From a virus: a stretch of 40,695 nucleotides of DNA. Position 1 is the first letter of the stretch. Each line of letters begins with the position of its first letter. This document shows positions 1-27,780 of the stretch, piece by piece. Position numbers and translations under genes: made by a program. The stretch is from positions 1 through 40,695 of IMG/VR virus record IMGVR_UViG_3300046642_000376. One strand, written 5' to 3'. Below the pieces are notes generated by a model. That model saw nothing but the letters and a program-made list of their open reading frames with translations. It was not told where the DNA came from and did no database searches.

Positions 1-27
1 CCAGGGCGCCGGCTGAATCCTCACTGC

Positions 28-302
28 TTGACAACCGCTACACGCTCGTGCTTGCTCGCGCTGCCGGCGCTCCTTCTCCCTGGCTGTCATGCTTGACAAA
101 CGCGGCGCGCCTGTGTTCGCGGCGCTCGTCTCCCAGGCGCTCGTGCTCGGCGGCGTTCGTCTCCCAGGCTAGGCGCCCAGCTCCACATCCTGCCAACACT
201 TGACACGCGCGGCACGTTTGTGCTGCTGGTTTCTGCTATGGCTCGAGGTTCGCGTTTTTCCTAATGTTTTGGCCTGTATTTGACACTGCGCCAGGCGTTG
301 TG
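28..302 (+). promoter_or_regulatory. Array of TTGACA elements in the left non-coding strip
   Basis: The first 335 bases hold no convincing gene. They contain TTGACA boxes at 28-33, 93-98, 200-205 and 280-285. In all four, GTG lies at positions 15-17 after the box (48-50, 113-115, 220-222, 300-302). The first two are embedded in TGCTTGACAA. The boxes look like sigma70 -35 elements pointing toward the early genes, but good -10 hexamers at 17-bp spacing are not obvious, so they may instead be protein-binding sites. A 12-bp sequence, GCTGTCATGCTT, occurs at 83-94 and again at 338-349, as if the strip grew by duplication of promoter units. The same TTGACA-N14-GTG pattern recurs at the right end of the window. 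Confidence 0.55.
126..169. repeat. Two 13-bp direct repeats, 31 bp apart
   Basis: TCGTCTCCCAGGC is present at 126-138 and 157-169, between the second and third TTGACA boxes. The copies are identical. The function is unknown; they may be duplication debris of the promoter strip or sites for a DNA-binding protein. Confidence 0.5.
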
Positions 303-319
303 CCCCTCACAGTGAATGC

Positions 320-353
320 TTGACAACCTGTCCCCGTGCTGTCATGCTTAGCA
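320..353 (+). promoter_or_regulatory. Early promoter with overlapping palindromic operator
   Basis: TTGACA at 320-325, a 17-bp spacer, then CATGCT at 343-348 as a weak -10. The -10 overlaps the perfect palindrome TGCTTAGCA (345-353, central T). The same arrangement, TTGACA-N17-CATGCTTAGCAA, occurs at 2784-2818, so it is not chance. A transcript starting about 7 bases after the -10 would begin at the AATG at 354-357, that is, with no leader. The palindrome over the -10 suggests control by a dimeric repressor, which I cannot identify in the window. Confidence 0.6.
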
Positions 354-551
354 AATGAGAGACCACGCACCTACGTCATCGGCCGGCGCTCGCACCGCTC
401 CATCTCGTCGCTCAACGCTGCCTGGCGCGCCTACGCGGGCGCCTTCACCGTCTACCAGGTCGAGACCCCCGACCGACGCGCGGCCCGCAAGGTCGTGCGC
501 CTGGCGCGGGCGCTCGGCTACGACGACGTCCGCTTCTGGGTGAAGCACTGA
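336..551 (+). CDS. Small hypothetical early protein, start uncertain
   Basis: A 71-codon frame with strong GC at third positions, ending in FWVKH. The protein is basic, with an arginine-rich middle and no recognised domain. The start is a puzzle. The only standard start in this frame is GTG 336, which lies inside the promoter spacer and has no ribosome site. The promoter would give a leaderless mRNA beginning at ATG 355, but that ATG is in another frame whose product is Arg/Pro/Ser-rich and looks spurious. A one-base deletion around 358-371, or a -1 frameshift there, would join ATG 355 to the good frame. I treat the body from about 357 as real and the start as unresolved. Confidence 0.5.
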   Translation: MLSCLANERPRTYVIGRRSHRSISSLNAAWRAYAGAFTVYQVETPDRRAARKVVRLARALGYDDVRFWVKH

Positions 552-586
552 CTCACAACTCAGCAACCAACAACGAGGACAGACAC

Positions 587-811
587 ATGACACCAACGAT
601 TCGATACAGCCCGAAGCAGCTACGGACCCGCGTCGAGCAGCTCGCGCTGCGCGGCCTCGACATCTCGATCGGCTGGGCCTACGGCCAGCCGCGCATCACG
701 AACCGCGCCGGCTCGCGCGACCTGTCGCCCAGGCTCTCGACCGGCGAGATGAAGACCTGGCTCGATGGTTTCGAGACCGCACTGAACATCAACGCAGCCA
801 CCCAGGAGTAG
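587..811 (+). CDS. Hypothetical early protein, 74 aa
   Basis: ATG 587 is preceded by GAGGA at 574-578, a good ribosome site. The protein begins with a basic segment (KQLRTRVEQL) and has a conserved-looking middle (LDISIGWAYGQPRI). No known domain is recognised. It follows the first gene by 35 bases and precedes the next by 4, so it is part of the early operon. It could be a small DNA- or protein-binding accessory factor; nothing in the sequence decides this. Confidence 0.7.
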   Translation: MTPTIRYSPKQLRTRVEQLALRGLDISIGWAYGQPRITNRAGSRDLSPRLSTGEMKTWLDGFETALNINAATQE

Positions 812-815
812 ACAG

Positions 816-1280
816 ATGCCAACCAAGCTCAAGGTCAGCTCACCGCTCGGCACGTTCACGCGGACCACCGTCCGCACCTACACGCACCTGGTCGTGGTGC
901 GCGGCAAGAAGCACGAGACCCTGGAGGCGCAGCGCCTGCGGGGCATCGCCAGCTGGAAGAAGGAGGCGGCGAAGTACCGCGAGGTCATCGCGGCCGGGTT
1001 CGACCGCACCGATCGCAACAACGGCGGGTTCGATCAGAAGTTCACCGCAGAGAAGCTGGCCGATGGCAGCTACGCGAAGTGGGCGACTGAGTGCGAAACG
1101 AGCGCCAGGGAGCTGGAGGCGCGCGGCCCGATCACCGAAGACGGCGACAACGACGCGTGGGCGTTCATCGGCTGGTGCGGCCGGCTCGACCTGGCCCAGA
1201 AGCTCTACGCGCAGCAGGACGACTGGCGGCACGTCGCGATCGTCTCGGTCGCGGATGGCTCGGTCGTGTTCAGCCGGTAG
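816..1280 (+). CDS. Hypothetical early protein, 154 aa
   Basis: ATG 816 follows AGGAG at 805-809. Residues 1-35 look like a beta-rich N-terminus, and a helical charged region follows (WKKEAAKYREVIAAG). The C-terminal part (AFIGWCGRLDLAQKLY, then VAIVSVADGSVVFSR) looks like a compact alpha/beta fold. I do not recognise the family. The protein is soluble, without signal peptide or membrane segment. Its place in the tight early cluster suggests host take-over or accessory metabolism, but no specific function can be read. Confidence 0.7.
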   Translation: MPTKLKVSSPLGTFTRTTVRTYTHLVVVRGKKHETLEAQRLRGIASWKKEAAKYREVIAAGFDRTDRNNGGFDQKFTAEKLADGSYAKWATECETSARELEARGPITEDGDNDAWAFIGWCGRLDLAQKLYAQQDDWRHVAIVSVADGSVVFSR

Positions 1281-1339
1281 CTCGTCGCCTGCGTCTGTCC
1301 TCGACCACGGGGTCGAGGGCAGAGCGGAGGAGATGACCG

Positions 1340-1789
1340 ATGACTGAGACCATGACGAAACGACCGACGGCAGAACAACTCGACGCGCTGCAGCAGTACG
1401 CCAGGGTGCATGGGCGCACCTGGAAAGCGCAGCTGCTGGACGACTGGCGCGCGGCGCGCGTGCCAGGCCCGCTGCACCAGCTCCGCAACACGTTTGGCCC
1501 GAGCTGGCTGCTGGATTTCACGCTGCCGGCGACGATGGGCAAGACGCGCACCTTCGCGACGACGGAGCAGGCGGTGCGCGCGTTCGTGCGGCACGGCAAG
1601 CAGCTCGGCTACGTGGTCGTGCTCGGCGGCGGCTGGTGGGAAGTGCCGAGCGTCGCGTTCCCGCGTCGCGCGCAGGGGTTCTCCGACCTGGAGAAGCTGC
1701 TGCTGCGGCGCGGCGTGCTGCGCGTGCTCACCAACGGCGGCGCGACGTTCACGGATCCCGTGCCGGCGGCGGCGCAGGTGCAGTCGTGA
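1340..1789 (+). CDS. Conserved phage protein with WK...LRNTFGPSWL motif, 149 aa
   Basis: ATG 1340 has GGAGGAG at 1326-1332, seven bases upstream. The N-terminal 60 residues carry the pattern R-x-WK followed by LHQLRNTFGPSWL. I recognise this motif from many small uncharacterised proteins of environmental phages, where it is often a stand-alone short protein. Residues 75-149 form a second region (YVVVLGGGWWEVP; LEKLLLRRGVLRVL) without a known match. The function is unknown. Its stop overlaps the next gene's GTG start (GTGA), so translation is coupled. Confidence 0.75.
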   Translation: MTETMTKRPTAEQLDALQQYARVHGRTWKAQLLDDWRAARVPGPLHQLRNTFGPSWLLDFTLPATMGKTRTFATTEQAVRAFVRHGKQLGYVVVLGGGWWEVPSVAFPRRAQGFSDLEKLLLRRGVLRVLTNGGATFTDPVPAAAQVQS

Positions 1790-2094
1790 CGCGCCCGCTC
1801 TTCGGTGTCAGTGTGGCGCAGGCCGCGCGCGAGGCGGCGCTCGCGGCGGTGCCGCGTATGCCGGTCATCGCGCGTCTGACCGGGCGCTGTGCCGACGGCG
1901 CGCAGCGCGACGGCGGGCGGCGCCTGCACGTCGTCCTGCGGCCACACGGCGCGCTGTCGGTGCCCTGCTTCGACACGGCGCTCTGCGGCGCCAAGCCAGG
2001 CCGGCTATCGAACGGCTGGACGGAGTCCGACGGCGCCGAGGTGCCGACGTGCCCGCGCTGCCGGCGCATCGCGGAGAAGGGCGGTGCCGCGTGA
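1786..2094 (+). CDS. Small zinc-finger-like protein, 102 aa
   Basis: GTG 1786 overlaps the stop of the preceding gene in GTGA, which decides the start over longer in-frame extensions. The C-terminal half has a cysteine pattern, CGAKPGRLSNGW followed about 20 residues later by CPRCRR, resembling a small zinc ribbon found in other phage proteins. It may bind DNA, RNA or protein. The stop again overlaps the next start, making this the middle of a translationally coupled trio. Confidence 0.7.
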   Translation: MTRPLFGVSVAQAAREAALAAVPRMPVIARLTGRCADGAQRDGGRRLHVVLRPHGALSVPCFDTALCGAKPGRLSNGWTESDGAEVPTCPRCRRIAEKGGAA

Positions 2095-2282
2095 CGAAGA
2101 AGCGCAGCCCTCGACTGACCGACAAGGAGCTGGACGCGCTACTGGAAGCAGTCGGGCACCGGCTCGCTGGAGAGATGGACGAGGACGACGACGACGCGGG
2201 CGCTCTTGAACGCGCCCAGGCCAAGCTGTGGCAGATGAAAGCAGCACGCGACGAGAAACCAACGACCACCAGGAGGAGCTGA
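2091..2282 (+). CDS. Small acidic/charged hypothetical protein, 63 aa
   Basis: GTG 2091 overlaps the upstream stop (GTGA). The protein has a basic N-terminus (KKRSPRL), then a predicted helix (DKELDALLEAVGHRL), an acidic stretch MDEDDDD around residue 30, and a basic tail ending TTTRRS. There is no known domain. The mixed charge and helical content suggest a small binding protein. The next gene starts 3 bases after the stop, with its ribosome site inside this gene's end. Confidence 0.65.
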   Translation: MTKKRSPRLTDKELDALLEAVGHRLAGEMDEDDDDAGALERAQAKLWQMKAARDEKPTTTRRS

Positions 2283-2285
2283 CAG

Positions 2286-2558
2286 ATGACCAGGAAGTCA
2301 CAACGACACCGGCTCGCGGCCGACATCGCGACCGCGAGCACGCTCGACACGCGGCCGGCGCGGTTCGTGAAGCCGACCGAGTCGAACATGCTGATCGACA
2401 TCGCGAAACGATTGCAGCGCCTGCAGACGCGCGGCGCCAAGCTGCGAAAGGAACTGAAGCGGAACGACACCGACATCCGCCACGTCAAGCGCGAGCTGCG
2501 GGCGCTGTCGCAGCAGCTCACCAGGGGCGACGACCTGGAAGGGGGCACGCACGCGTGA
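2286..2558 (+). CDS. Coiled-coil hypothetical protein, 90 aa
   Basis: ATG 2286 is preceded by AGGAGGAG at about 2271-2278. Residues about 38-80 form a strongly charged, leucine-repeated helix (KRLQRLQTR, then LRKELKR, then VKRELRALSQQL), typical of a short coiled coil that would dimerise. No enzymatic motif is present. It is the last gene of the first plus-strand run; a minus-strand gene converges on it 20 bases downstream. Confidence 0.65.
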   Translation: MTRKSQRHRLAADIATASTLDTRPARFVKPTESNMLIDIAKRLQRLQTRGAKLRKELKRNDTDIRHVKRELRALSQQLTRGDDLEGGTHA

Positions 2559-2578
2559 GGATGCCCCAGGAGGCGGCG

Positions 2579-2764
2579 CTAGGCGCCGGCCCGCCTCCTG
2601 GCTCTCTTCCGCTTGGCCGGCGGCTGGTGGTCAGCCCAGCGCGCCAGCGCACCCTCCCGCGCAATCTCCCGCCGCCGCGTCGCCGACAACGCCTCTGCCC
2701 TGGCCTTCCCCCCGTTCCTGCCCGCATCCGCCCGCTTCGCGCTCAGCTCCTTCGCCTTGTCCAT
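2579..2764 (-). CDS. Small GGKARA...ARW-motif protein, 61 aa, antisense orientation
   Basis: Read on the minus strand from ATG 2764. The body matches a pattern I know from small phage and bacterial proteins: GG-K-ARA, then LS-x-x-RR-x-EIAR, then A-x-ARW (here GGKARAEALSATRRR then EIAREGALARWA). The tail is very basic (KRKRARRR), which suggests nucleic-acid binding. A consensus -10 (TACAAT) ends seven bases upstream of the ATG and there is no ribosome site, so the message is probably leaderless. It is a lone minus-strand gene in the plus-strand early region and may be a regulator. Longer in-frame extensions upstream run through the opposing promoter and are unlikely. Confidence 0.6.
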   Translation of the reverse strand: MDKAKELSAKRADAGRNGGKARAEALSATRRREIAREGALARWADHQPPAKRKRARRRAGA

Positions 2765-2770
2765 CCTGGC

Positions 2771-2776
2771 ATTGTA
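2771..2776 (-). promoter_or_regulatory. -10 element for the minus-strand regulator-like gene
   Basis: On the minus strand TACAAT is preceded directly by GTG and followed by six bases and then ATG 2764, so transcription would start at or beside the start codon. I find no good -35 at 16-18 bp. The site faces the plus-strand promoter at 2784-2812, so the two divergent promoters nearly abut and could be co-regulated or occlude each other. Confidence 0.45.
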
Positions 2777-2783
2777 CACCTGC

Positions 2784-2819
2784 TTGACAAACCAGGGGTG
2801 TGCCCTCATGCTTAGCAAC
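2784..2819 (+). promoter_or_regulatory. Second early promoter with TGCTTAGCA operator
   Basis: TTGACA 2784-2789, 17-bp spacer, CATGCT 2807-2812, palindrome TGCTTAGCA 2809-2817, then ATG at 2820. The -35 is in TGCTTGACAA, as at 320. The gap from the -10 to the ATG is seven bases, so the mRNA is expected to be leaderless. The close match to the promoter at 320-353 marks the two as copies under the same regulator. Confidence 0.65.
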
Positions 2820-3005
2820 ATGACTACCTCGACTCCGTTCGTCGTTGGCGACCGCGTCACCGTGGTGTGGGCCATTCTGCGCGACATGCCGATCGGCACG
2901 GGCACGATCGAGCGCATCACCTATCAGTCCAGCGACGGCACGCCGCTGTACTGGGTCAGCGGGTTCTCGTGCGCGCGGACGGCCGACGTGCTGCGGAAGG
3001 CCTGA
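2820..3005 (+). CDS. Small beta-rich hypothetical protein, 61 aa
   Basis: ATG 2820 sits where the upstream promoter would start transcription, so it is probably translated from a leaderless mRNA. An upstream in-frame ATG at 2808 lies in the -10 box. The sequence (FVVGDRVTVVW, then GTGTIERI, then PLYWVSGF) alternates in the manner of a small SH3/KOW-like beta barrel, with a short helix at the end (TADVLRKA). The function is unknown; such folds often bind nucleic acid or protein. Confidence 0.65.
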   Translation: MTTSTPFVVGDRVTVVWAILRDMPIGTGTIERITYQSSDGTPLYWVSGFSCARTADVLRKA

Positions 3006-3058
3006 CCGTCATTGTTCTGCTTGCCAAGTTAACACTCGGTACTGGAGGATTCGACACC

Positions 3059-3337
3059 ATGGGAGTACATATCGCTCACGACCGGCACAACGACGTCGCC
3101 ATCATGTATTGCTCGACCACCGACTGGGCCTTCGGCCCCGTCTTCGTAGACGACGACGGGCACGACGCCGACGAACGCGTCGAGGCCTTCCTGCGCTGGC
3201 TCAAGACGACCACGGGCGTGCCGGACCCGCGCAGTCTGACGGAGGAGGAGCTGCAGAAGGCGTACTTGGACTGGCGAGCGCAGGAGACCGCGCAATGGGC
3301 ACGCGAGGAAGCTGCCCGTCTTCAGGAGACTGACTAA
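3059..3337 (+). CDS. Hypothetical early protein, 92 aa
   Basis: ATG 3059 has GGAGG at 3044-3048. A TGCTTGCCAA sequence at 3018-3027 resembles the -35 motif of the early promoters but lacks a clear -10. The protein starts with a possible metal- or nucleotide-binding stretch rich in His and Asp (HIAHDRHND), followed by an acidic DDDGHDADERVEAFLRWL helix and a charged C-terminal helix. The family is not recognised. The stop overlaps the next ATG by one base. Confidence 0.65.
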   Translation: MGVHIAHDRHNDVAIMYCSTTDWAFGPVFVDDDGHDADERVEAFLRWLKTTTGVPDPRSLTEEELQKAYLDWRAQETAQWAREEAARLQETD

Positions 3338-3600
3338 TGGCGAAGGCCATCCGCTACACGATCAGCGTCACCGCCCTCTACGTGCTCGATGACGACGCGC
3401 AGGACTGCACGGCCGAGGAGGCCAGGCTGACGGCGCGCGAGAACCACCGCATCGCGCTGGCGATGAACGAGGCGCTCGCCAAGACGACGGGCTGGCAGTG
3501 CGACTCGGAAATTCTGGAGACCGACGTCATCGACGTGACGCTGTCGCCGCGAGACCAGAAGGTGGACTGGAGCAAGCTCCCCGCTGACCCGGTGCTCTGA
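3337..3600 (+). CDS. Hypothetical early protein, 87 aa
   Basis: ATG 3337 shares a base with the upstream TAA, with CAGGAG just before it. It has a beta strand at the N-terminus (IRYTISVTALYVLDDD), a central helix (AEEARLTARENHRIALAMNEAL), and a C-terminal strand (DVIDVTLSPRD). The compact alpha/beta layout suggests a small folded protein without enzymatic signature. The next gene begins immediately after the stop. Confidence 0.65.
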   Translation: MAKAIRYTISVTALYVLDDDAQDCTAEEARLTARENHRIALAMNEALAKTTGWQCDSEILETDVIDVTLSPRDQKVDWSKLPADPVL

Positions 3601-3804
3601 ATGAAGGACGACGACCGCAGCCACTGCGAGGAGTGCGACGGGTTCACCGAGCGCAGCTGCAAGCGATGCGGGCAGCGCATCTGCCGGCACTGTGCCGGCG
3701 ACCATCGCATCGGCGACTACGGTAACTACCTAGGCGACATCTCCTCGCGCGGACCACGCTGCACCCCGCAGCTCCACAAGGAAAGGACAAGGATAGCCCG
3801 ATGA
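3601..3804 (+). CDS. Small multi-cysteine zinc-binding protein, 67 aa
   Basis: ATG 3601 follows the preceding TGA with no gap, so coupled translation is likely. It has Cys9-x2-Cys12, Cys20-x2-Cys23 and CRHC at 28-31 with further His, a layout like a B-box or double zinc ribbon. It may mediate protein or nucleic-acid contacts. Its last codons overlap the start of the next gene. Confidence 0.65.
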   Translation: MKDDDRSHCEECDGFTERSCKRCGQRICRHCAGDHRIGDYGNYLGDISSRGPRCTPQLHKERTRIAR

Positions 3805-4301
3805 ATCTTTCGACTCGCGTGCTCGGCGCCTCCATCGTCAAGCAGCTCACCGAGCGGACAGCGCAGCCCATTTTGAAAATCGGGAAGGACGCGTTCACGC
3901 GCGGCGACTTAGCGAGCATTGAGTGTTTCAATTTCACGGCGGCGGCGAACCTGTCAAAGCTGCTCAGCGACCTGGGCGTTAGCTCCACCAAGGATCTGTA
4001 CGACCGCGTCGCGCCGCTCTCGCTCGCAATCCCGCACCTGGGCGCCATCTCCCTGGCCGTACTCGGCGCCTGCTTTGAGCGCAAGGGTCTCGGCGGTCGC
4101 GCGCCGCTCGAAAGCTGGGCCGAGGAGCACCGCGAGAAAACCGAGAAAGACATCGTGAGTTTTTCGACACTGAAGCATCGCCAGGCTGACCGAGAGGACG
4201 CCGACCGGAAGGGTCGGAAGCACGCGCGCCGGAACCAGGCGCACCGGATCCGCGTGTCGCGATTCACCAAGCGCCAAACAAGGCAAGCAGCCAATGGCTA
4301 G
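3801..4301 (+). CDS. Hypothetical protein with basic C-terminus, 166 aa
   Basis: ATG 3801 overlaps the upstream stop and has AAGGAAAGGA about 15 bases upstream. Residues 1-115 are mostly helical, with two hydrophobic stretches (VAPLSLAIPHLGAISLAVLGACF around 68-90) that could be a buried helix pair or a weak membrane segment. Residues 125-166 are strikingly basic (RKGRKHARRNQAHRIRVSR), fit for DNA or RNA binding. There is no known family. The stop overlaps the next start by 8 bases. Confidence 0.65.
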   Translation: MNLSTRVLGASIVKQLTERTAQPILKIGKDAFTRGDLASIECFNFTAAANLSKLLSDLGVSSTKDLYDRVAPLSLAIPHLGAISLAVLGACFERKGLGGRAPLESWAEEHREKTEKDIVSFSTLKHRQADREDADRKGRKHARRNQAHRIRVSRFTKRQTRQAANG

Positions 4302-4743
4302 TCATCCGAAACACGCAATGAACGGGAACGGCAACGGGACCGGCGGCGGGTCACTGACGCAGAAGAAGATCGAACAGCTCCTGCAGCATCACGAGCGCAT
4401 CGTCGTGGCACTGCAGACCACGCTCAGCTTGCTGACGGGCGTCAGCGAGACGACCAAGAAGCAGAAGGGCGCCGCGCTGCTCATGTCAGCGATTCGCCTC
4501 GACGCTCAGCGCCGCGTCTCCAAGAAAAAGCCGGCGCCCACGTCGGAGGAAATTCGCGCGCAGCGCCTCCGCACGGCGGAATTTCTCGCGAGCTTCGACA
4601 ACGTCAAACCGACGCGCGGCGGGAAGGGGTTTGAGAATCTCCAAACGCACGGGCTGGGCACGATGATCCGCTACGGCTACCTACGACGGAAGGGCGGGGG
4701 CTACGTTCGCACGGCGAAGACCTACGTCCCAGAGACGCGGTGA
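4294..4743 (+). CDS. Putative winged-helix DNA-binding protein, 149 aa
   Basis: ATG 4294 overlaps the previous stop. After a Gly/Asn-rich linker (residues 9-20) come helical segments (KIEQLLQHHERIVVALQTTL). The C-terminal third reads RTAEFLASFD, then LGTMIRYGYLRRKGGGYVRTAKTY, the shape of a winged-helix recognition region seen in small phage regulators. I infer a transcription or replication regulator, unproven. Translation is probably coupled to both neighbours. Confidence 0.65.
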   Translation: MASHPKHAMNGNGNGTGGGSLTQKKIEQLLQHHERIVVALQTTLSLLTGVSETTKKQKGAALLMSAIRLDAQRRVSKKKPAPTSEEIRAQRLRTAEFLASFDNVKPTRGGKGFENLQTHGLGTMIRYGYLRRKGGGYVRTAKTYVPETR

Positions 4744-4943
4744 TGCCCATTCACTGGCTCACCGACGGCACCGGGCGAGAACGCGCACCAGGGGTGCCCC
4801 TGGACGCGTACAGAGGCCGCAGGAACGACGAGCTGCGCCGCCTGCAGGCACCTGAGACTCCCCGGCAGCTATCGCTCATGTGGGCGCTCGTGGCGGGGGT
4901 CGCGGGCGCCCTGCTCCTGGCGGCGGCGGCGCTCGCCGGCTGA
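4743..4943 (+). CDS. Small single-pass membrane protein, 66 aa
   Basis: ATG 4743 overlaps the upstream TGA; GTG 4740 is an alternative one codon earlier. The first 45 residues are polar and charged. The last 20 or so (LMWALVAGVAGALLLAAAAL) form a clear transmembrane helix ending at the C-terminus, so this is a tail-anchored protein facing the cytoplasm if inserted that way. The role is unknown; an envelope-acting early protein such as a superinfection-exclusion factor is conceivable. Its last 75 bases overlap a convergent minus-strand gene. Confidence 0.55.
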   Translation: MPIHWLTDGTGRERAPGVPLDAYRGRRNDELRRLQAPETPRQLSLMWALVAGVAGALLLAAAALAG

Positions 4944-5093
4944 ACTGGAGTCGGGCCGCTCGGCGTTGCGCTGCAGGCGCGCGTCGAGCGGTTCAGCCAG
5001 CCGGCCGGCACGCGCACGCAGGCGCGCCGGCACGCGGCCAGCCGCCAAGGCCGTCAACTCATCCGTAGTCAGTCGAACCCAACAGTCCCGCAT
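4869..5093 (-). CDS. Small basic minus-strand protein, 74 aa
   Basis: Read from ATG 5093 on the minus strand. The core (VRLTTDELTALAAGRVP, then LRARAGRLAEPLDARLQ) resembles a short helical motif found in small phage proteins. It is followed by a highly charged tail. A CATAAT (minus strand, 5121-5116) may be its -10. It converges with the membrane-protein gene over 75 bases and diverges from the gene at 5119. The long overlap in GC-rich DNA is a warning, but the core reads as real protein. It is the second antisense small gene in the early region. Confidence 0.45.
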   Translation of the reverse strand: MRDCWVRLTTDELTALAAGRVPARLRARAGRLAEPLDARLQRNAERPDSSSAGERRRRQEQGARDPRHERPHER

Positions 5094-5118
5094 GGGCGGT
5101 ATGCTGACCTTTTCAATT

Positions 5119-5505
5119 ATGGCACCGAGCAGAACGCGAGCCGCCGAGATGACCGCCGACGAACACGCCCGCGCCGCCTTCGTGATGGTTCGACACGTCA
5201 CGGTGGGCGACGAGGAGCAGACGCGGATCGATGACCCGAGCTACCTCGCGGAACTGCCGTCGAGGCTCGCCGTCGCGTGCCAGTACATGATCGAGCAGAG
5301 CGACTATAACGGCGCCTGCTACCTCTACATCCGCTGGCACCTGCTCTGCCTGCCTCGCTGGGAATGGAACGCGCGCCAGGCGTTGCTGTTAGATGCCGCG
5401 ACCGCCGTCTTCACCGACTTTCAAGACGACGCCTCAGAGCCTGACGATCCGGTGACCATCACCGAATGGCTGGAGGCCGCAGAAGCGATCCTGGCGCCGG
5501 CATGA
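5119..5505 (+). CDS. Hypothetical early protein, 128 aa
   Basis: ATG 5119 is chosen because a possible -10 (TATGCT, 5100-5105) ends 13 bases upstream. ATG 5092, 5101 and 5149 are alternatives and no start has a strong ribosome site. The protein is mostly helical (DEHARAAFVMVRHV; SRLAVACQYMIEQSDYNGACYLYIRWHLL) and ends with an acidic region and a helix. No domain is recognised. The 175 bases upstream (4944-5118) contain mainly the antisense gene. The stop overlaps the next ATG (ATGA). Confidence 0.6.
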   Translation: MAPSRTRAAEMTADEHARAAFVMVRHVTVGDEEQTRIDDPSYLAELPSRLAVACQYMIEQSDYNGACYLYIRWHLLCLPRWEWNARQALLLDAATAVFTDFQDDASEPDDPVTITEWLEAAEAILAPA

Positions 5506-5711
5506 GCAACGAGCGGTACTATCGACGTCGCGCGGCAGGCCTCTGCGGCGGGTGTGGGCAACCAGGGCGAGGGTTCGCCTACTGCGTGGCCTGTCGAGCG
5601 CGAGCGCGAGCACGAGCGCGGACGGTACGCGAGCACGACCGGCCGGGGTTCAATCAGTACCAGCGCATCTGGAAAGCCACACGAGGATGGAGCGCGTGCA
5701 GTTCTACGTAG
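5502..5711 (+). CDS. Four-cysteine zinc-ribbon protein, 69 aa
   Basis: ATG 5502 overlaps the upstream stop. Residues 14-32 contain C-x2-C (CGGC) and C-x2-C (CVAC), separated by about 10 residues, followed by an Arg/Ala run (RARARARAR) that is likely a basic nucleic-acid-binding helix. The end of the gene overlaps the start of the transglycosylase gene by about 15-25 bases in another frame. It may be an accessory factor, but nothing proves a link to DNA modification. Confidence 0.6.
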   Translation: MSNERYYRRRAAGLCGGCGQPGRGFAYCVACRARARARARTVREHDRPGFNQYQRIWKATRGWSACSST

Positions 5712-6454
5712 GTCTTCACCAAACGTCAGACGCCAAGCACTTCGATCGGGCCTTCATCTCCGTCACGCGCCTGCGTCGCCTGAAGTCACCGTTCTTCGTC
5801 GTCAAGGACTGGATCATGGACTCTGGAGCCTTCAGCACGCTGCGAACCCATGGCGGCTACCCCCAGCCGGTGGAGGAGTACGCCGATGAAATCGCGCGCT
5901 GGGTGCGGGTCGGGCAGCTCCGCGCCGTCGTCACGCAGGACTACATGTGCGAGCCGTTCATGCTGGCGCTGACAGGCCTGACGGTGCCCGAGCACCAGGC
6001 ACTCACCATCGAGCGGTACGATCGCTTGCGCGCGTTGGTCTCGCCGTCGGTCTACGTCATGCCGGTGTTGCAGGGGTACGCCCCGAGCGACTACGTCTCA
6101 CACATCGCGCAGTACGGCCACCGCCTCGCCCCGCGTGCCTGGGTCGGCGTCGGCTCCATCTGCAAGCGCAACGGGACACCGGCCGAAGTCGTCGCGCTGC
6201 TGCGAGCGATCAAGCAGACGCGGCCGGACCTTCGCCTGCACGGGTTCGGCCTCAAGATCACGGCGTTGGAATCGAGCACGGTCTGTCAGTACCTCGACAC
6301 GGCTGACTCGATGGCCTGGAGCTTCCGCGCGCGGAAACACGGCTGGAACCAAAACGACTGGCGCGAGGCCGAGTACTTCGTCCGAGAGATTGAGCTGTTA
6401 CTGAAGCGCAGCGACACCGACTCGCTTCTGCCTTTCGAGAAGGAGCAACAGTGA
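5687..6454 (+). CDS. dpdA: DpdA-like 7-deazaguanine DNA transglycosylase (TGT superfamily)
   Basis: This is a TIM-barrel protein related to tRNA-guanine transglycosylase, in the short phage DpdA-like group. In phages such enzymes exchange guanine in DNA for a 7-deazaguanine such as preQ0. Counting from GTG 5696, motifs in order are DSGAF (Asp42), QDYMCEP (Asp82), LQG (Gln126-Gly127), GVGSIC (151-156), GFGLK (183-187) and ADSMAW (Asp204). They line up with the substrate-binding and nucleophile motifs of TGT. The C-terminal zinc site of tRNA enzymes is absent. GTG 5696 has AGGA spaced well and gives the family's usual start (FYVG at residue 3); ATG 5687 is the outer start. I see no folE, queD, queE or queC homologue, so the base would have to come from the host. 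Confidence 0.75.
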   Translation: MERVQFYVGLHQTSDAKHFDRAFISVTRLRRLKSPFFVVKDWIMDSGAFSTLRTHGGYPQPVEEYADEIARWVRVGQLRAVVTQDYMCEPFMLALTGLTVPEHQALTIERYDRLRALVSPSVYVMPVLQGYAPSDYVSHIAQYGHRLAPRAWVGVGSICKRNGTPAEVVALLRAIKQTRPDLRLHGFGLKITALESSTVCQYLDTADSMAWSFRARKHGWNQNDWREAEYFVREIELLLKRSDTDSLLPFEKEQQ

Positions 6455-6726
6455 AGAAGCACGGCTACGTCTCAACGCACCGCACGATCGATCGGACGTG
6501 CCCCGCCTGCGGGCGCAGCCTGAACGCGGCGACCGGTGTGTCGGTGGACGCCGCTGACCAGAACCCCCAGATGAGCGACGGCGACATCACGACGTGCGCC
6601 TACTGCGGCGCGGTGTCCGTCGTCACGGGCGACGCGCTGCGCCTGGCGACCGACGACGACCTGGCGCGACTGCCCGACGAGCTGCGGCACCTCGCGCTGA
6701 CGTTCATCCGAGCGAGGAGCGAATAA
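6451..6726 (+). CDS. Zinc-ribbon protein, 91 aa
   Basis: GTG 6451 overlaps the stop of the transglycosylase gene (GTGA). CPACGRSLNAATGV (Cys17, Cys20) and CAYCGAVSVVTGDALR (about 48-51) form a classic four-cysteine zinc ribbon. The pattern with TGDALR and a following acidic helix (TDDDLARLPDELRHL) is familiar from phage zinc-ribbon proteins of unknown function. Coupling to dpdA may mean a shared role, but the same protein type occurs in phages without dpdA. Confidence 0.7.
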   Translation: MKKHGYVSTHRTIDRTCPACGRSLNAATGVSVDAADQNPQMSDGDITTCAYCGAVSVVTGDALRLATDDDLARLPDELRHLALTFIRARSE

Positions 6727-7124
6727 TGGCGATGGTTCGCCTGACGGCAGATCAAGCGCGCCGCGCCGGCCTGGGCCTCATCGCCCAGCCGCGCGAGCAC
6801 AAGTACCACGCGGAACCCCAGGTCGTGGACGGCGCCCGATTCGACAGCAAGAGGGAGTCAACGCGCTGGGGCTGGCTGCAGCTGCGCGTGAAGGTCGGCG
6901 AGATTCGCGATCTGCAGCGCCAGGTGGAGTACCCGATCAACGTGACCAACATGGAGACGGGCGAGATTATCTACTGCGGCGCGTACGTCGCCGACTTCGT
7001 CTACGTCGAGGTCGCGTCCGGCGCGAAGGTCGTAGAAGACAGCAAGGGCGTACGCACTGCCGTCTTCATCCTGAAGAAAAAACTCGTGGAGGCGCTCTAT
7101 GGCATCCACATCACCGAGCAGTGA
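6726..7124 (+). CDS. DUF1064-family PD-(D/E)XK nuclease-like protein, 132 aa
   Basis: ATG 6726 shares a base with the upstream TAA and has GAGGAG at 6714-6719. The sequence follows the DUF1064 layout: KYHAEPQVVDGARFDSKRE (Glu44), then VADF (Asp90), then VVEDSKG (Asp105 and Lys107), then LKKKLVEALYGIHI. These are the expected acidic and lysine residues of a PD-(D/E)XK nuclease core. Members are usually phage or prophage proteins, sometimes annotated as Holliday-junction or endonuclease-like. It could process replication intermediates or degrade host DNA; if DNA is modified by the neighbouring DpdA, self-protection is a possible link, which is inference. Confidence 0.8.
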   Translation: MAMVRLTADQARRAGLGLIAQPREHKYHAEPQVVDGARFDSKRESTRWGWLQLRVKVGEIRDLQRQVEYPINVTNMETGEIIYCGAYVADFVYVEVASGAKVVEDSKGVRTAVFILKKKLVEALYGIHITEQ

Positions 7125-7132
7125 GGTAGCCG

Positions 7133-7597
7133 ATGTCTGACGCCCGCACCCCTGACCCACGCTGCGAGCACGGTGTGCCGATGCACGAGCACTGCTCGGC
7201 CTGTCCTACGGGTATTACTTTTGATTCGGCGTATGAGGCTGACGCCCGCCCCCCTGACGACACCCCGCGCTGCTACAACTGCGGGAAGCCTGCGACTCAT
7301 CCGACGCGCTATCCAGATCGGCGCTGGTGTGATACGTGTGTGCTCCGCTGGACGTTCGATTCTAATGGACACATGGTGTGGATTGGACAGGAGACTCAAA
7401 TGGACAGCGACCCGCGAACAGGAGAAGGTCGCGCCGCGCCCGTCGCCCCTGACGACACCCTCACACGCCTTGCACTGAAGGGCGTGAATCACAGCGATGA
7501 CCAATACCACCTGAAACAGTTACGCGCCGAAGTCTCCCGTCTCCAGCAGGAGAACGCCCTACTCCGTCGCAGCCTGGAGATGTTGGGCCGGCTATAA
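7133..7597 (+). CDS. Double zinc-ribbon protein with C-terminal leucine zipper, 154 aa
   Basis: ATG 7133, with TGAGG just upstream. It has two cysteine clusters: CEHG...HCSAC (residues 11-24) and CYNCGKPA...WCDTC (about 47-69). After a flexible middle, residues 124-152 form an amphipathic coiled coil (HLKQLRAEVSRLQQENALL). The architecture suggests a dimeric DNA- or RNA-binding regulator. The two cysteine pairs and the zipper may be separate modules fused together. No specific family is recognised. Confidence 0.65.
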   Translation: MSDARTPDPRCEHGVPMHEHCSACPTGITFDSAYEADARPPDDTPRCYNCGKPATHPTRYPDRRWCDTCVLRWTFDSNGHMVWIGQETQMDSDPRTGEGRAAPVAPDDTLTRLALKGVNHSDDQYHLKQLRAEVSRLQQENALLRRSLEMLGRL

Positions 7598-7612
7598 CAA
7601 AGGAGGTGTGAG

Positions 7613-7777
7613 ATGAGCTACGACGAACGCTGCGACGAACTGGCGCGTGTGTTCTTGGAGAGCGAACCCGCCGACGTCAACACCGAAGAGAACGTCGCGC
7701 GCATCGCGCAGGCGATTCAAGACACGATCGAGGGGGAACTGGCCGACCTGCAGGACAAGGACGAACAGGAGGCGTGA
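7613..7777 (+). CDS. Small acidic hypothetical protein, 54 aa
   Basis: ATG 7613 follows AAGGAGGTG at 7600-7608, the strongest Shine-Dalgarno in the early region. The protein starts MSYDERCDELARVFLES and ends DKDEQEA. It is acidic, all-helical, with no domain recognised; a small anti-host or DNA-mimic protein is possible on charge alone. AGGAGG at its end serves the next gene, whose ATG comes one base after the stop. Confidence 0.7.
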   Translation: MSYDERCDELARVFLESEPADVNTEENVARIAQAIQDTIEGELADLQDKDEQEA

Positions 7778-7778
7778 G

Positions 7779-8003
7779 ATGAGCGCGGTCAGTCGAACAA
7801 CGCTCTACAACCGACGCCAAAGTGTCGCGACCTTGCAAGACCTAGCGATGCCTGGGTTCGCGGTGACGTACGACCCTGATCTGCGATTCGTCGTGATGAG
7901 CATGAAGGACGGCAAGACCTACAAGTTCGGCCGCTACGAGGTCGTCCATGCCTGGCTGGACGGGTACAGCCGAGGCGTGCTCAGCGAGGACGACGAGACC
8001 TAG
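7779..8003 (+). CDS. Hypothetical protein, 74 aa, last early gene
   Basis: ATG 7779 is served by AGGAGG inside the previous gene. The sequence has two beta stretches (FAVTYDPDLRFVVMSMKDGKTYKFGRY) and a C-terminal helix (EVVHAWLDGYSRGVL), then an acidic tail. It is soluble and of unknown family. After it, 8004-8118 is a GC-rich convergent gap where early plus-strand and late minus-strand transcription meet. I see no clean hairpin-plus-T-run terminator there. Confidence 0.7.
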   Translation: MSAVSRTTLYNRRQSVATLQDLAMPGFAVTYDPDLRFVVMSMKDGKTYKFGRYEVVHAWLDGYSRGVLSEDDET

Positions 8004-9280: not shown

Positions 9281-10639
9281 TCACGTTTCCAGCAGCGCGT
9301 CTTGCGACACCACCAGCGGCGGGTAGACGACGGTGCGCGAACTGCGACCAGGGACGCGCACGCCGTTGAGAATGAACCCGAGCATCCCATCGTCGGGTCC
9401 GTTGATAACGAACGACTCGCCCGACGACAGCGTGACGTCGAGCTTCTGCTCGGTCTCAGGGTCGATCCCGGTGATGTGGTAGCGCCCGCCGTCGGGCACC
9501 ACCTGCGTGAACGTGCGCCGGCCCTTGATGCCGCACAGCGTCTGCGTGAAGCGCCCGTCGGCGAACGCGCAGTACGTGCGGTTGACGCCCTCGCCGCCGT
9601 CGGGCCAGCCGGTGATGTCGGACACGAGCGCCTGCGGCGCGATGTTCGGGTTGCCGGCGCTCTTGCGCCAGTTCTCGACATCCGGCGGCATCCACGCGTC
9701 CACCTGGCGCACGGCCTTGAGAATCGCCGGCAGGTTGTCAATCTCCCAGAGGTTCGCGTGCCTCCCGTGCGCGGGGTCTTCGATGCCCATGACCATGTCG
9801 CCGACGTGCAGCACCCACAGCGCGCCGCCGCTCTGCACCGTGACCGCGCGCAGCATCGCGAGCTGCAGCGGACTCTCCAGCGTGTTGAGCGAGCTGTTCA
9901 CGCCAGGGGGTTCGTTGCCCGAGTAGACGTAGCGCGTGTCCTTCGCGTTGAACCCTTGCCGCACCATGCGCCAGCCGCCGTCACCGTCGCCGCGATCGGA
10001 ATGGTCGGTGCCGAGCGAGGCGCCGGCCGCGCCGGTCGCGTCGGACATTTCCTGATCGAGAATGCTCGATGAGAGCGCGACGAGCGGCACGCCAGACTCC
10101 ACCAGAAGGACGCGCGCACACTCGCGCAGCTGCTCGATCGTGCCGCCGTTCTGCGCCCATTCGTTCCACACTTCGACGTCGATCACGCCCGACGGTTTCG
10201 GTGCGATGAGCTGCGCCAGCCGCAGCGACAGGGCGGTCGGGTTCGGGTACGGCGAGCCGAAGACCGTCGTCTCGACGCGCATCCCGCGCGCGTGCGCGGA
10301 GCCGGTCGAGCCGAGAAACACCGCGTCGTAGTCGGGCCAGGTCGGATCGATCGCGTTGCCGAGCCAGTCCACCTGGCAGAGCATTCGCAAATAATCCGGC
10401 GGCAAAATCTCGAGCCTCAGACACGTTTCGATCAGCCAGTCCAAGTTCGCGAGGAGGCGCGGGCGATCGTTGCGCCAGCCCTGCATCAGCCAGAAGAACG
10501 TCATCCCGAGCGCGTGGAAGTCGCCGCTGTCGTCGTAGATCGCTTTGCCGCGCCAGCGTACGGTGCCGCGTCGGCCAGGGACGAGAACCGGCCCGCCGGC
10601 CACGACGGCGTTGAGCATCGCGAGCGTGCTCGCGTTCAT
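9281..10639 (-). CDS. Glycosidase-like virion/tail protein, 452 aa
   Basis: The N-terminal two thirds look like a TIM barrel: FHALGMTFFWLMQGW, VFLGSTGSAHARGMRVE, then VIDVEVWNEW with Glu160 as a GH-A-type acid/base, and YVYSGNEPPG (Glu243) as a possible second carboxylate. LWVLHVGDMVMG and HANLWEIDNLPAIL match regions seen in phage glycosidase-like tail proteins. The last 130 residues are beta-rich and could be a carbohydrate-binding or oligomerisation domain. A capsule- or exopolysaccharide-degrading depolymerase is the best guess. The start ATG overlaps the upstream stop (ATGA). Confidence 0.55.
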   Translation of the reverse strand: MNASTLAMLNAVVAGGPVLVPGRRGTVRWRGKAIYDDSGDFHALGMTFFWLMQGWRNDRPRLLANLDWLIETCLRLEILPPDYLRMLCQVDWLGNAIDPTWPDYDAVFLGSTGSAHARGMRVETTVFGSPYPNPTALSLRLAQLIAPKPSGVIDVEVWNEWAQNGGTIEQLRECARVLLVESGVPLVALSSSILDQEMSDATGAAGASLGTDHSDRGDGDGGWRMVRQGFNAKDTRYVYSGNEPPGVNSSLNTLESPLQLAMLRAVTVQSGGALWVLHVGDMVMGIEDPAHGRHANLWEIDNLPAILKAVRQVDAWMPPDVENWRKSAGNPNIAPQALVSDITGWPDGGEGVNRTYCAFADGRFTQTLCGIKGRRTFTQVVPDGGRYHITGIDPETEQKLDVTLSSGESFVINGPDDGMLGFILNGVRVPGRSSRTVVYPPLVVSQDALLET

Positions 10640-23337: not shown

Positions 23338-25085
23338 GGTTTTCTCGGGACGCGCATGGTGCGGGTTTCTGGGACGACCTTCGCGATGTAGCGATAGCCG
23401 GCCCTGGCCGGTACGATCGTCGTGCTGTCGGGCACGGTCGCATCGGTGTTGGGCTGCGCGAGATTGACCTGCGGACTCGCCGCGCTAGCGGCCACGTTGA
23501 CCGTGACCGTGATTGGCGGATACGAGGCGCCGACCGCGAGCGCGTCTGACCGCGTACACACGTTGCCGACGCACGTCCAGCCGGCGCCGGCCATCGAGAC
23601 CAGCGTGAGACCAGCCGGCACTGTGTCCGTCACCGTCTGCACGCCCACGGTGGGCGAGTCGCCCGTGTTGGTGACGACGATGGTGTAGGTCGCGTTGAGC
23701 TGGCCTTGGAAAAACGGATCCGTGTGGCTCTTCGTGAGCGTGAGCGCGGGCAGGCCCGCGACCACCAGCCACGTCCAGTTCATGTGGACGAACGTGGCAC
23801 CATCCGACGCGACGGACTGAAGATCCCAGCGATCGGCGGGCGACGTATACGCGGGGGTGGACCCCGATCCGGTGAAGACGAAACCCGCCCCGGTGACGAC
23901 GCAGATGGAGGGCGTGTCCGCGAGCGCCCGTCGCGTCATAAAGGTGAGACTGCCGCTGACCACTATATCGACGTTCACGTAGAGGCTCGTCACCCGAAAC
24001 GGATCGATCGCGGGACCAGGGAAACTGATGTCCACCTCCTGCATCGGCCACCGGTTCGGGCCGACGCCAGGCGTGGGCGCGTTCGCGGTAGACCACGCCC
24101 AGCCATACTCCCAATTCGCCGCGTAATCGGTGAGGACTGAGCCGACAGCGGTGCCTGGGCCTGGGATGGTTCCGGCAATCGCAAATTGCCCATCGGTCGT
24201 CGCGCGGAAGCGGACAGATCCTTGAACCAGCGCATTCGCGGGCGCGACGGATTCGACCAGCTCGGCGACCGCGAGCCGGTCGGTGACATGGACCGGGCAG
24301 TCAAACTCGATGAACGCCTTCGTGTTCGTCCCGCTGATGGTCGCCAGCGTGTTGACGGTGCCGCCGGTCCCATCTTGAAAGACGTTGTTGAGAGAGAGCA
24401 CGAAGCGACGCGCCGCGCCCACGCCTGGGGCAATGTCGCATGCCACGTCGATCCGTGTCGCCGACCCCTCCAGCGGCACGATGTTATGAGCGTAGGTGTT
24501 GATGATGGCGTCGTTATCAATCCCGAAACCGTTCACGCTGCCGAAGAACGGGGCGTACAAGCGATTCAGTGCGGCGCTCGCGCCACCGCCAGAGCTGGGC
24601 AACCCATAGCCGCTCTCCCGAGGGTTGTCGCTCTCAAACACGAGGGACCATTGCGTCGTCAGTCCCTGAAAGTTCGGCCCGAAGGTCATCGAGCAGGTGT
24701 CCATCGCCAAGCAGACTCGATCGCCTGGGTTGATGTGGACGCTGTGACTCAGATCCATCGCCGTCGAGGTGAAACCCGTGCCAGGCGTCCCCGCCGCGTG
24801 CGCGGGAATCGTGACGGTCAGCGCGGTCGGGGCATCGTTGATGTAGAGCGTGATCGGAATCGCCGACCAGCCGCCGCCCGAGTTGACGTCATTGATAAAC
24901 CGCTGCTCCATGAAGAGCGACTTGAACGTCCCCGCGACGGACCACGTATGGCTGTAGCGGAAGAGGCGATTAGGGGCGAGGCTGAACACAGCCGCCCAAT
25001 AGCCTCCGCGCAGCGGCGTATAGACGGGGAAATCTCCCAACACCCCGTTAGAGACGCTCGCCTTGCCGAGAATGAGCTGCTTCAC
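23334..25085 (-). CDS. Large beta-rich virion protein with C-terminal DUF11 repeat, 583 aa
   Basis: GTG 25085 overlaps the stop of the small gene upstream. Residues 1-450 are beta-rich and uncharacterised. Residues about 455-550 match the DUF11 repeat (ALTLTKSHTDPFFQGQLNA, TYTIVVTNTGDSPTVGV, VTDTVPAGLTLVSM, then GWTCVGNVC). In bacteria this Ig-like repeat is a surface-adhesion module. Here it may help virions bind hosts or extracellular matrix. It sits between capsid and tail genes, so it may decorate the capsid or collar. Confidence 0.6.
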   Translation of the reverse strand: MKQLILGKASVSNGVLGDFPVYTPLRGGYWAAVFSLAPNRLFRYSHTWSVAGTFKSLFMEQRFINDVNSGGGWSAIPITLYINDAPTALTVTIPAHAAGTPGTGFTSTAMDLSHSVHINPGDRVCLAMDTCSMTFGPNFQGLTTQWSLVFESDNPRESGYGLPSSGGGASAALNRLYAPFFGSVNGFGIDNDAIINTYAHNIVPLEGSATRIDVACDIAPGVGAARRFVLSLNNVFQDGTGGTVNTLATISGTNTKAFIEFDCPVHVTDRLAVAELVESVAPANALVQGSVRFRATTDGQFAIAGTIPGPGTAVGSVLTDYAANWEYGWAWSTANAPTPGVGPNRWPMQEVDISFPGPAIDPFRVTSLYVNVDIVVSGSLTFMTRRALADTPSICVVTGAGFVFTGSGSTPAYTSPADRWDLQSVASDGATFVHMNWTWLVVAGLPALTLTKSHTDPFFQGQLNATYTIVVTNTGDSPTVGVQTVTDTVPAGLTLVSMAGAGWTCVGNVCTRSDALAVGASYPPITVTVNVAASAASPQVNLAQPNTDATVPDSTTIVPARAGYRYIAKVVPETRTMRVPRKP

Positions 25086-25249
25086 GATGCGGCCGAGGCT
25101 GCGATGAGCGCGAGGTATCGCTTCGTCGCGTCGTTGAGCGTGGTCCGCGTCTTCGCGTCCTGCAGCGTCAGCCAGGTGACGTCGGACTTTGTCGAGGGCA
25201 GGTTGATCTGCGTGTAGATGACGATCTTCGTGTTGACATCACGCGGCAT
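25082..25249 (-). CDS. Small late protein, 55 aa
   Basis: ATG 25249 lies within the end of the YkgJ-like gene (11-base overlap), with a GGGGG run just before it; the TGA overlaps the next GTG. It reads MPRDVNTKIVIYTQINLPST, then a helical C-terminus ending in ASAAS. GC-rich third positions and exact coupling at both ends support it. The function is unknown, probably structural. Confidence 0.6.
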   Translation of the reverse strand: MPRDVNTKIVIYTQINLPSTKSDVTWLTLQDAKTRTTLNDATKRYLALIAASAAS

Positions 25250-25727
25250 GTGGCCCCCAGCCGTGCGCGCGTGCCCACGGTTGCGCTTTCTCCTGAATCA
25301 CGCGCAGGAGACGGCGCGCGATCCGCGATCGGCGCAGCCGGTCGTCGCGATTCACGCACGCGCCCGACAGCGGGTCGGACAACCACGGCTCGCGATCAGG
25401 ATGCGGACGCAGGCACGCGAAGCGCCGGCAGTTGTACGGGCGAATGTCGTAGACGGTGCAGGCCTTGGTCTCGGCGTCGTAGAGCGGACACGGGTGCGCC
25501 TGGAGCGCGACGAAGTGCTCCTGCGTTTTTCGGAAATGCAGCGGCACGGCGCCGACGTCCTTCGATCGGCGCTCTAGAATCAGCGCGGCCTCGTGCGTCG
25601 TCATCACGACGTCGTGCGGCTCCAGGCAGCACGCGCCGTCGCGTTGACACTTCCAATTCGGATCGATCGTGAGCGCCGCGCCGCCGCGCACGAGGCGCAG
25701 CGGGACGGCGCGGCTCGAGATTTCCAT
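25239..25727 (-). CDS. YkgJ-family cysteine-cluster protein, 162 aa
   Basis: The pattern Cys27-x5-Cys33-Cys34, then HPCPLYD (Cys80), Cys90 and TVYDIRPYNCRRFAC (Cys100, Cys105) fits the YkgJ/CxxCxxCC family thought to bind zinc or an iron-sulfur cluster. Typical members are cellular and uncharacterised; finding one inside a capsid gene cluster is odd. It could help process or oxidise a virion protein, or be a passenger. The start is ATG 25727; no strong ribosome site is seen. Confidence 0.75.
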   Translation of the reverse strand: MEISSRAVPLRLVRGGAALTIDPNWKCQRDGACCLEPHDVVMTTHEAALILERRSKDVGAVPLHFRKTQEHFVALQAHPCPLYDAETKACTVYDIRPYNCRRFACLRPHPDREPWLSDPLSGACVNRDDRLRRSRIARRLLRVIQEKAQPWARAHGWGPHAA

Positions 25728-25733
25728 GACGCG

Positions 25734-26369
25734 CTACGCCGTGACGGACAGCTCGTGCGAGTCGATCAGCGCCTGCTCTTCGTCCATCGAGAGCACCGCC
25801 GCCGCCTGCTCGCGGATCGGTTTCGGGTGCTGCTTCAACATCTGACGCAAACGATCCACGAGACCCGGCGCGGTCTTGTAGTTGTCGTTGTTGAACGCGG
25901 TCTCGTTGGTGATGTTCAGATCCGAGAGCTTGCCGTTGAGGTCCGTCTTCGCGGTGACGCGCTCGACGTAGGCCGAGCCATCGGGCCGGCGCACGCGATA
26001 CTCGCCCTGCTCCAAGAGGTTGAGCAGCTGCACCTCCTCGCGGGTCTCGGTGTCGCCAGAGACCGGCCAGGGCACGGCCATGCGGCACTTCAGGTCCGGC
26101 GTCAGCGCGCGTCCACGCGGGTGGAAGACCGAGCGGTTCGGTGACACTTCGTTGGAGGGCCGAAACGCGCGCTTGCTTTCGAGGACCGTCTTCTCTGCGG
26201 CCTCCGTCGTGGCCGACGCGATGCGCTCCATGGCGCCGGTCAGCTTCGCCATCATGTCGGGGTCTTGCGACTCGGCGGGCCGCTGCGCCAGGAGCGTGAG
26301 CGCCTGCTGGATGCCGGCCAGGACCGCCCACGGGTCGGGCGGTTGTGCTTTCTGTGGTTCGTTCGCCAT
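25734..26369 (-). CDS. Hypothetical structural-region protein, 211 aa
   Basis: ATG 26369 after GAGGGAA. It is helical at the N-terminus (WAVLAGIQQALTLLAQRP; AKLTGAMERIASATTEAA), with a central beta region (EEVQLLNLLEQGEYRVRRPDG; AYVERVTAKTDLNG) and a helical end (LVDRLRQMLKQHPKPIREQ). No known family. Its position after capsid genes suggests a minor capsid or head-completion factor. Confidence 0.6.
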   Translation of the reverse strand: MANEPQKAQPPDPWAVLAGIQQALTLLAQRPAESQDPDMMAKLTGAMERIASATTEAAEKTVLESKRAFRPSNEVSPNRSVFHPRGRALTPDLKCRMAVPWPVSGDTETREEVQLLNLLEQGEYRVRRPDGSAYVERVTAKTDLNGKLSDLNITNETAFNNDNYKTAPGLVDRLRQMLKQHPKPIREQAAAVLSMDEEQALIDSHELSVTA

Positions 26370-26381
26370 GGTTCCCTCTCG

Positions 26382-26684
26382 TTAGCCGTTGAAGCGATAG
26401 AGCCAGGTGCCGTCGGCGTCTTCGCCGTGGTGTTCGTAGCGGCGCCCGCCGTGATAGAAGTCGTACGGCCGCACGCCGGCCGGCAGCTGCGTGGGAATCT
26501 CGATGTACGCGATGTCGGGCGGGTCGCCGATGCCCACGCGGAGCGGCGGCAGCGCGTTGTCAGGTTTCGGCGGCGCGTGCGTCGGCGGCGGTGCCGGCAG
26601 CTCCTGGTCAGGCCGCATCGTGCGGTACAGCTCGTTGGTCTCGGGCTGCTCCTTCTCGGTGTCGTCGTCGTGCTTGCGGGTCAT
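26382..26684 (-). CDS. Proline-rich small late protein, 100 aa
   Basis: ATG 26684 with AAGGAG about nine bases upstream, preferred over an in-frame ATG at 26771 that would run through the intergenic hairpin. Acidic N-terminus (KHDDDTEKEQPETNE), proline-rich middle (ELPAPPPTHAPPKPD), and a folded C-terminus (YDFYHGGRRYEHHG, TWLYRFNG). The function is unknown; such proteins occur near capsid genes of related phages. Confidence 0.6.
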   Translation of the reverse strand: MTRKHDDDTEKEQPETNELYRTMRPDQELPAPPPTHAPPKPDNALPPLRVGIGDPPDIAYIEIPTQLPAGVRPYDFYHGGRRYEHHGEDADGTWLYRFNG

Positions 26685-26718
26685 CGTCGGTCTCCTTTGT
26701 TTCGTCGGAACGGGACGC

Positions 26719-26747
26719 GGACGAGTCGCCTTCGTGTTGACTCGCCC
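26719..26747 (-). terminator. Hairpin after the capsid-associated gene
   Basis: On the minus strand a 9-bp stem (one G-U) pairs 26739-26747 with 26719-26727 around an 11-base loop. It lies in the 83-base gap after the gene ending at 26768. No T-run follows, so it may attenuate, stabilise or mark processing rather than fully terminate. Confidence 0.4.
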
Positions 26748-26767
26748 GTGTCTCGTGGTGAGCTTCT

Positions 26768-27685: not shown

Positions 27686-27741
27686 GTGTGTCTCCTGCGG
27701 TTGATGCGACTCGATCGCGCGCGGCGCTCATCGGCCGCAAT

Positions 27742-27771: not shown

Positions 27772-27780
27772 TGGTTGCGA

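Follow-up and report, generated by a model that had tools for sequence, protein, structure and literature searches.

A singleton phage DpdA without a precursor pathway and the candidate supply genes beside its relatives

Do phages that carry a singleton DpdA modify their DNA, and if so, with whose precursor? The question arises from the survey of Hutinet et al. (2019; PMC6884629), and a dpdA gene in a stretch of 40,695 bases (the window), which is the whole of a linear viral record, bears on it. The record may be incomplete, although a related record is of nearly equal length (40,589 bases). From the sequence alone, the initial annotation had described the product as a DpdA-like DNA transglycosylase with all TGT-type active-site motifs, had found no homologs of folE, queD, queE, or queC, and had proposed that modification of the phage DNA would depend on host preQ0 or a salvaged base. 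On the evidence given below, we consider it likely that the singleton DpdA installs a host-derived 7-deazaguanine in the phage DNA as a shield against restriction, with the precursor coming from the host.

Family, fold, and active site

The gene (positions 5687–6454, plus strand) encodes 255 aa and was assigned as a singleton DpdA-type (TGT-superfamily) DNA guanine transglycosylase from its open reading frame (ORF), its Pfam and PHROG matches, an AlphaFold2 (AF2) model, and Foldseek. The stop codon is TGA at 6452–6454. The start is ambiguous: no well-spaced Shine-Dalgarno sequence precedes the ATG at 5687, and a GTG at 5696 is an alternative. The ORF is a real gene, with matches far beyond chance: the protein matches the Pfam family PF23859 (DpdA) at 1.1e-41 (143 bits against a curated cut-off of 27) and PHROG 1279 ("queuine tRNA-ribosyltransferase") at 6.6e-67, and its relatives in IMG/VR are 49%–61% identical over the alignment.

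We used an alignment of 23 sequences (A2) to assess motif conservation. The TGT-type active-site motifs to which the initial annotation referred are all present and are invariant among the relatives in this alignment, as is a VGVGS loop. On the plus strand, they are DSGAF (D45 to F49; 5819–5833), with an invariant D45; QDYMCEPF (Q84 to F91; 5936–5959), a proposed base-recognition segment in which D85 and C88 are invariant; QG (Q129 and G130, within LQG; 6071–6076), two invariant residues that are also proposed to recognize the base; HGFG (H185 to G188; 6239–6250), with an invariant H185; and ADSMAW (A206 to W211; 6302–6319), with an invariant D207. A profile alignment with the DpdA of phage 9g (7.5e-7) places D45, H185, and D207 on D72 of the 9g DSGAF motif, H196, and D215 of the 9g CDSSSW motif, respectively, so that the DSGAF, HGFG, and DS-W motifs of the two proteins correspond.

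The DSG motif of TGT carries the general acid/base Asp. By analogy, D45 would be the general acid/base of DpdA, and D207 is its predicted nucleophile; the QDYMCEPF segment may correspond to the D156/C158 region of TGT, and Q129 may be the counterpart of TGT Q203. DpdA2 proteins lack a histidine equivalent to 9g H196 (Hutinet et al., 2019; PMC6884629), and because H185 aligns with that residue, the window protein is a DpdA and not a DpdA2.

A fold search was needed because a sequence search for solved relatives of the protein found none. The best PDB match of the AF2 model (pLDDT 89.8, pTM 0.87) in Foldseek is 7ui4, a DNA preQ0 insertase DpdA (9e-7; TM 0.62 by query length), and TGT structures follow it; the top match thus lies inside, and not outside, the TGT superfamily. 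Although 7ui4 is the best structural match, this bacterial DpdA is 14% identical to the window protein and over 400 residues long. Bacterial DpdA works within a multi-gene dpd island. A score above the family cut-off, a DpdA-like fold, and conserved catalytic Asp residues together place the window protein in PF23859, and its first description as a DpdA-like DNA transglycosylase stands on the PF23859 and PHROG 1279 matches, the fold, and the motifs.

Precursor source and hosts

Six-frame HMM searches of the 40.7-kb record for FolE, QueD, QueE (radical SAM), QueC, and YhhQ (PF02592) found none of them, which bears out the reported lack of folE, queD, queE, and queC homologs; no gene directly beside dpdA in the window matches PF02592. 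QueC was likewise found in 0/29 dpdA records examined. A phage genome with a DpdA but without FolE, QueD, QueE, and QueC falls in group 3 as defined by Hutinet et al. (2019), and the window, as a linear and possibly incomplete record, has the gene content of that group. The combination that the annotation had singled out is therefore not novel: group 3 already comprised 76 phages with a DpdA and no pathway, and host preQ0 or uptake had been proposed as the source (PMC6884629). The window phage is an ordinary member of this known class, and the family of its DpdA shows a useful salvage signature.

For 9g DpdA, insertion of deazaguanine into DNA is established, with the phage's own pathway (folE, queD, queE, and gat-queC; PMC6884629), whereas the window phage lacks these genes. 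The proteins also differ in length and family (317 aa and PHROG 887 in 9g; 255 aa and PHROG 1279 in the window). The group 3 (singleton-DpdA) phages Orion and Salmonella phage 7-11 have, like the window phage, a DpdA and no genes for preQ0 or G+ synthesis. Orion contains no 7-deazaguanine, as expected because the pathway is missing from its host, Mycobacterium smegmatis; 7-11 carries a trace modification of about 0.02% of G (PMC6884629). The DpdA of Mycobacterium phage Ashraf, which we took, on the basis of genome size and map, as a member of Orion's B1 cluster and used as a stand-in for Orion in the motif comparison, keeps all of the active-site motifs, and Orion's negative result may thus be attributable to lack of substrate. 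Mycobacterium phage members such as Ashraf fall in PHROG 1279, like the window DpdA, at about 40% identity. Compared with the singleton-DpdA phages, the window phage is a different phage with very divergent structural genes, and its DpdA branch, unlike the known singletons, is common to prophages of Burkholderiales, Rhizobiales, Sphingomonas, Verrucomicrobiota, Acidobacteriota, and cyanobacteria.

DpdA relatives were found by tblastn in 399 phage records, nearly all of them from Mycobacterium phages at about 40% identity; the nearer ones (53%–55%) are in Sinorhizobium phage phiLM21, Rhizobium phage RHph_TM3_3_3, and Microcystis phages. IMG/VR yielded 25 loci, and GTDB yielded 42, from Paraburkholderia, Rhizobiales, Sphingomonas, Caulobacteraceae, Verrucomicrobiota, Acidobacteriota, cyanobacteria, and others. 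TGT is encoded in 38/39 bacterial genomes that hold a relative, and a near-full-length QueC (at least 100 bits) is encoded in 28/39; several of the genomes without QueC encode YhhQ themselves. A Streptomyces genome with a distant DpdA relative has no TGT. In one Rhizobium genome (G042), matches to QueC, a YhhQ-like protein, and a TGT-like protein lie within about 4 kb of each other (contig C35, about 25,000–29,300), possibly as a bacterial deazaguanine DNA-modification cluster.

We infer that the window DpdA would act on DNA by TGT-like base exchange, with D207 as the nucleophile and D45 as the general acid/base. Guanine would be removed at selected sites in the phage DNA and replaced by a 7-deazaguanine, most likely preQ0 and possibly preQ1, and DNA modified in this way would be shielded from host restriction enzymes. 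The precursor would be taken from the queuosine pathway of a preQ0-making host, or from the host's salvaged pool, rather than made by the phage. Some relatives would supplement it with one supply gene beside dpdA, for either a preQ0 transporter of the YhhQ type or a protein resembling QueD; the window phage has neither. The fold, the motifs, and the recurrence of the preQ0 transporter gene among the relatives support the dependence on host preQ0 or a salvaged base that was proposed at the outset.

Supply genes beside dpdA

We searched 71 dpdA loci (0.85 Mb in total) for YhhQ and QueD-like genes. A gene for YhhQ (PF02592), a preQ0 transporter, lies directly beside dpdA at 5/71 loci (L016, L027, which is phiLM21, L051, L071, and L073), and a PTPS/QueD-like gene lies just upstream of dpdA at 5/71 (L004, L009, L025, L026, and L044, of which L025 and L026 are near-duplicates). 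No copy of either gene was found away from dpdA in the 0.85 Mb of dpdA loci, and the probability that ten of ten supply genes would adjoin dpdA by chance is, as a rough estimate, 5e-9. Most of the 71 loci have neither gene, and both are absent from the window. L016, L027, and L071 score above the curated PF02592 cut-off and L051 just below it, and the YhhQ of L073 was found with a profile built from the other four. PF01242 scores exceed the cut-off in L009, L025, and L026, and L004 and L044 were linked by BLAST or profile only.

In phiLM21, whose DpdA (gp25) is 53% identical to that of the window, the gene directly downstream of dpdA (gp26; L027 6768–7295) is annotated as a hypothetical protein and matches PF02592 as a YhhQ/VUT-family transporter. 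QueC, QueD, FolE, and a radical SAM gene were not found in phiLM21, as in the window phage; the two differ in that the window has no counterpart of gp26. The pairing recurs in L016; in L051 and L071, yhhQ is upstream of dpdA. The five yhhQ-linked rows are scattered over the DpdA tree and have close kin without yhhQ. Host genomes lacking QueC accounted for 2/3 of the yhhQ-linked dpdA cases versus 7/36 without the link (Fisher p 0.13), which is only suggestive that yhhQ beside dpdA is commoner in such hosts. The QueD-like genes beside dpdA are short, and in the L009/L025 pair the cysteine of the E. coli QueD segment CGRLHGH is missing, so their enzymatic activity is uncertain. In the viral records checked, these QueD-like genes adjoin a singleton dpdA and no QueC is present.

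Other genes were seen in these neighborhoods. A nucleoside 2-deoxyribosyltransferase-like gene adjoins dpdA or yhhQ (L015 6798–7187 and one neighbor in alignment A3) and might offer an alternative way to exchange or recycle bases. A PAPS-reductase/PP-loop ATP pyrophosphatase gene, from the broad superfamily of QueC, lies near dpdA in L060 (4793–5923) and in L028 (7297–8106).

We also examined the association from the side of yhhQ. With the phiLM21 YhhQ as the query, 80 IMG/VR loci (L092–L171) were retrieved; near-duplicates were set aside, and one suitably sized neighbor was taken per locus, which gave 56 loci. The yhhQ neighbor matched PHROG 887, the family of 9g DpdA (2e-98), at 39/56 loci and PHROG 1279 at 3/56, so that 42/56 were of the DpdA type in a sample biased by a query that was itself taken from a dpdA neighbor. 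Many of these DpdA-type neighbors are about 226 aa long and carry a DNGAFS motif. QueC was found in 0/44 yhhQ-phage records, some of which are fragments. Most of the yhhQ neighbors come from another DpdA family, so descent from a single shared cassette does not readily account for the association. An earlier remark was that YhhQ in phages does not correlate with any specific phage group (Hutinet et al., 2019; PMC6884629), and the association of yhhQ with dpdA appears to be at odds with that remark. This family-level salvage signature, and not the group 3 class itself, is what is new here.

The balance tips slightly toward the proposition that pathway-less phage and prophage DpdAs form a supply-dependent class of DNA modifiers that draws on host or environmental preQ0 and in which a single plug-in gene, either yhhQ or a small gene like queD, has repeatedly been gained next to dpdA, with the window phage as its minimal, transporter-less form. 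If this proposition is true, the two-gene dpdA–yhhQ pair would be a cassette for salvage-based DNA modification and anti-restriction. As phiLM21 is a prophage of a culturable Sinorhizobium and carries the pair, the salvage idea is directly testable.

A working DpdA could also sit idle, or nearly so, in a host with no preQ0 or too little of it, and be kept as mobile cargo for other hosts. Such a state would agree with the unmodified DNA of Orion in M. smegmatis (PMC6884629) beside the intact motifs of its presumed cluster-mate Ashraf, with the absence of dpdA from a related phage of equal size, and with the Streptomyces genome that lacks TGT. It is made improbable, however, by the presence of TGT in all but one of the 39 bacterial genomes and of QueC in most of them, by the strong conservation of the active site, and by the scatter of the transporter-linked rows over the tree, and we favor the installation of a host-derived base.

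Substrate and neighboring genes

The fold that the window protein has in common with TGT, and the GenBank annotation of its relatives as queuine tRNA-ribosyltransferase, would suit a small phage TGT that exchanges guanine in tRNA or other RNA and not in DNA. The Pfam search gave no match to PF01702 (TGT), however, and a profile comparison with E. coli TGT gave no signal (hhalign probability 0.1). With only three cysteines, the protein has no C-x-C-x2-C zinc motif of the TGT type, and it shows neither the family match nor the zinc-binding Cys/His motif of a tRNA-guanine transglycosylase. It is also much shorter than TGT, and the similarity is seen in the fold, and presumably in the layout of the active site, but not in sequence profiles. 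The best matches are to the DpdA family and a DpdA crystal structure, several relatives have DNA methyltransferase genes next to dpdA, and a full TGT is already present in nearly all hosts. An RNA substrate is thus very unlikely, and we retain DNA as the probable substrate.

A small zinc-ribbon-like ORF with a CxxC...CxxC pattern (5502–5711, plus strand; PHROG 28444, E 0.002) overlaps the start of dpdA by 25 nt, and a 91-aa zinc-ribbon-like ORF (6451–6726, plus strand; PHROG 24566, 2.2e-08) overlaps its stop codon by 4 nt. A nuclease-like gene of the DUF1064/PHROG 190 type ("Holliday junction resolvase"; 6726–7124, plus strand; PF06356, 7.4e-15; PHROG 190, 1.3e-24) follows, in agreement with the nuclease gene originally placed after dpdA. 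The "tight coupling" of dpdA to the zinc-ribbon genes is correct as a description of the overlaps, but the arrangement is not conserved: homologs of either zinc-ribbon ORF were found beside dpdA in 0/25 relatives, and the neighbors of dpdA vary across loci. The related phage of 40,589 bases, whose terminase is 83% identical, has no dpdA and keeps the DUF1064 gene at 62% identity. These observations mark dpdA as accessory cargo and its neighbors as ordinary phage genes, with the DUF1064 gene as part of the phage backbone. It is highly improbable that dpdA acts as a unit with the two ribbons and the nuclease, the ribbons giving the DNA-binding or zinc part missing from the short DpdA, because, despite the overlapping gene ends and a DUF1064 gene two genes downstream of dpdA in RHph_TM3_3_3 too, neither the zinc ribbons nor DUF1064 travels with dpdA, and we rejected them as conserved partners.

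Beyond this region, the structural and other large genes (9281–36,000, minus strand) have almost no Pfam or PHROG matches except the terminase, which marks a very divergent phage group; among the large genes scanned, only a terminase, a single DUF11 domain, and unnamed PHROGs were recognized. A megablast search of the window against phages gave no match. A tRNA-Asp (anticodon atc) called by ARAGORN at 9358–9434 (minus strand) was rejected as a false positive, as it matches nothing in Rfam, falls within an ORF, and is absent from related records. The early module (positions 1–8000) appears to be inverted with respect to the structural genes when compared with an equally long related phage (G069; L087 and L088), and this end of the genome may have been rearranged.
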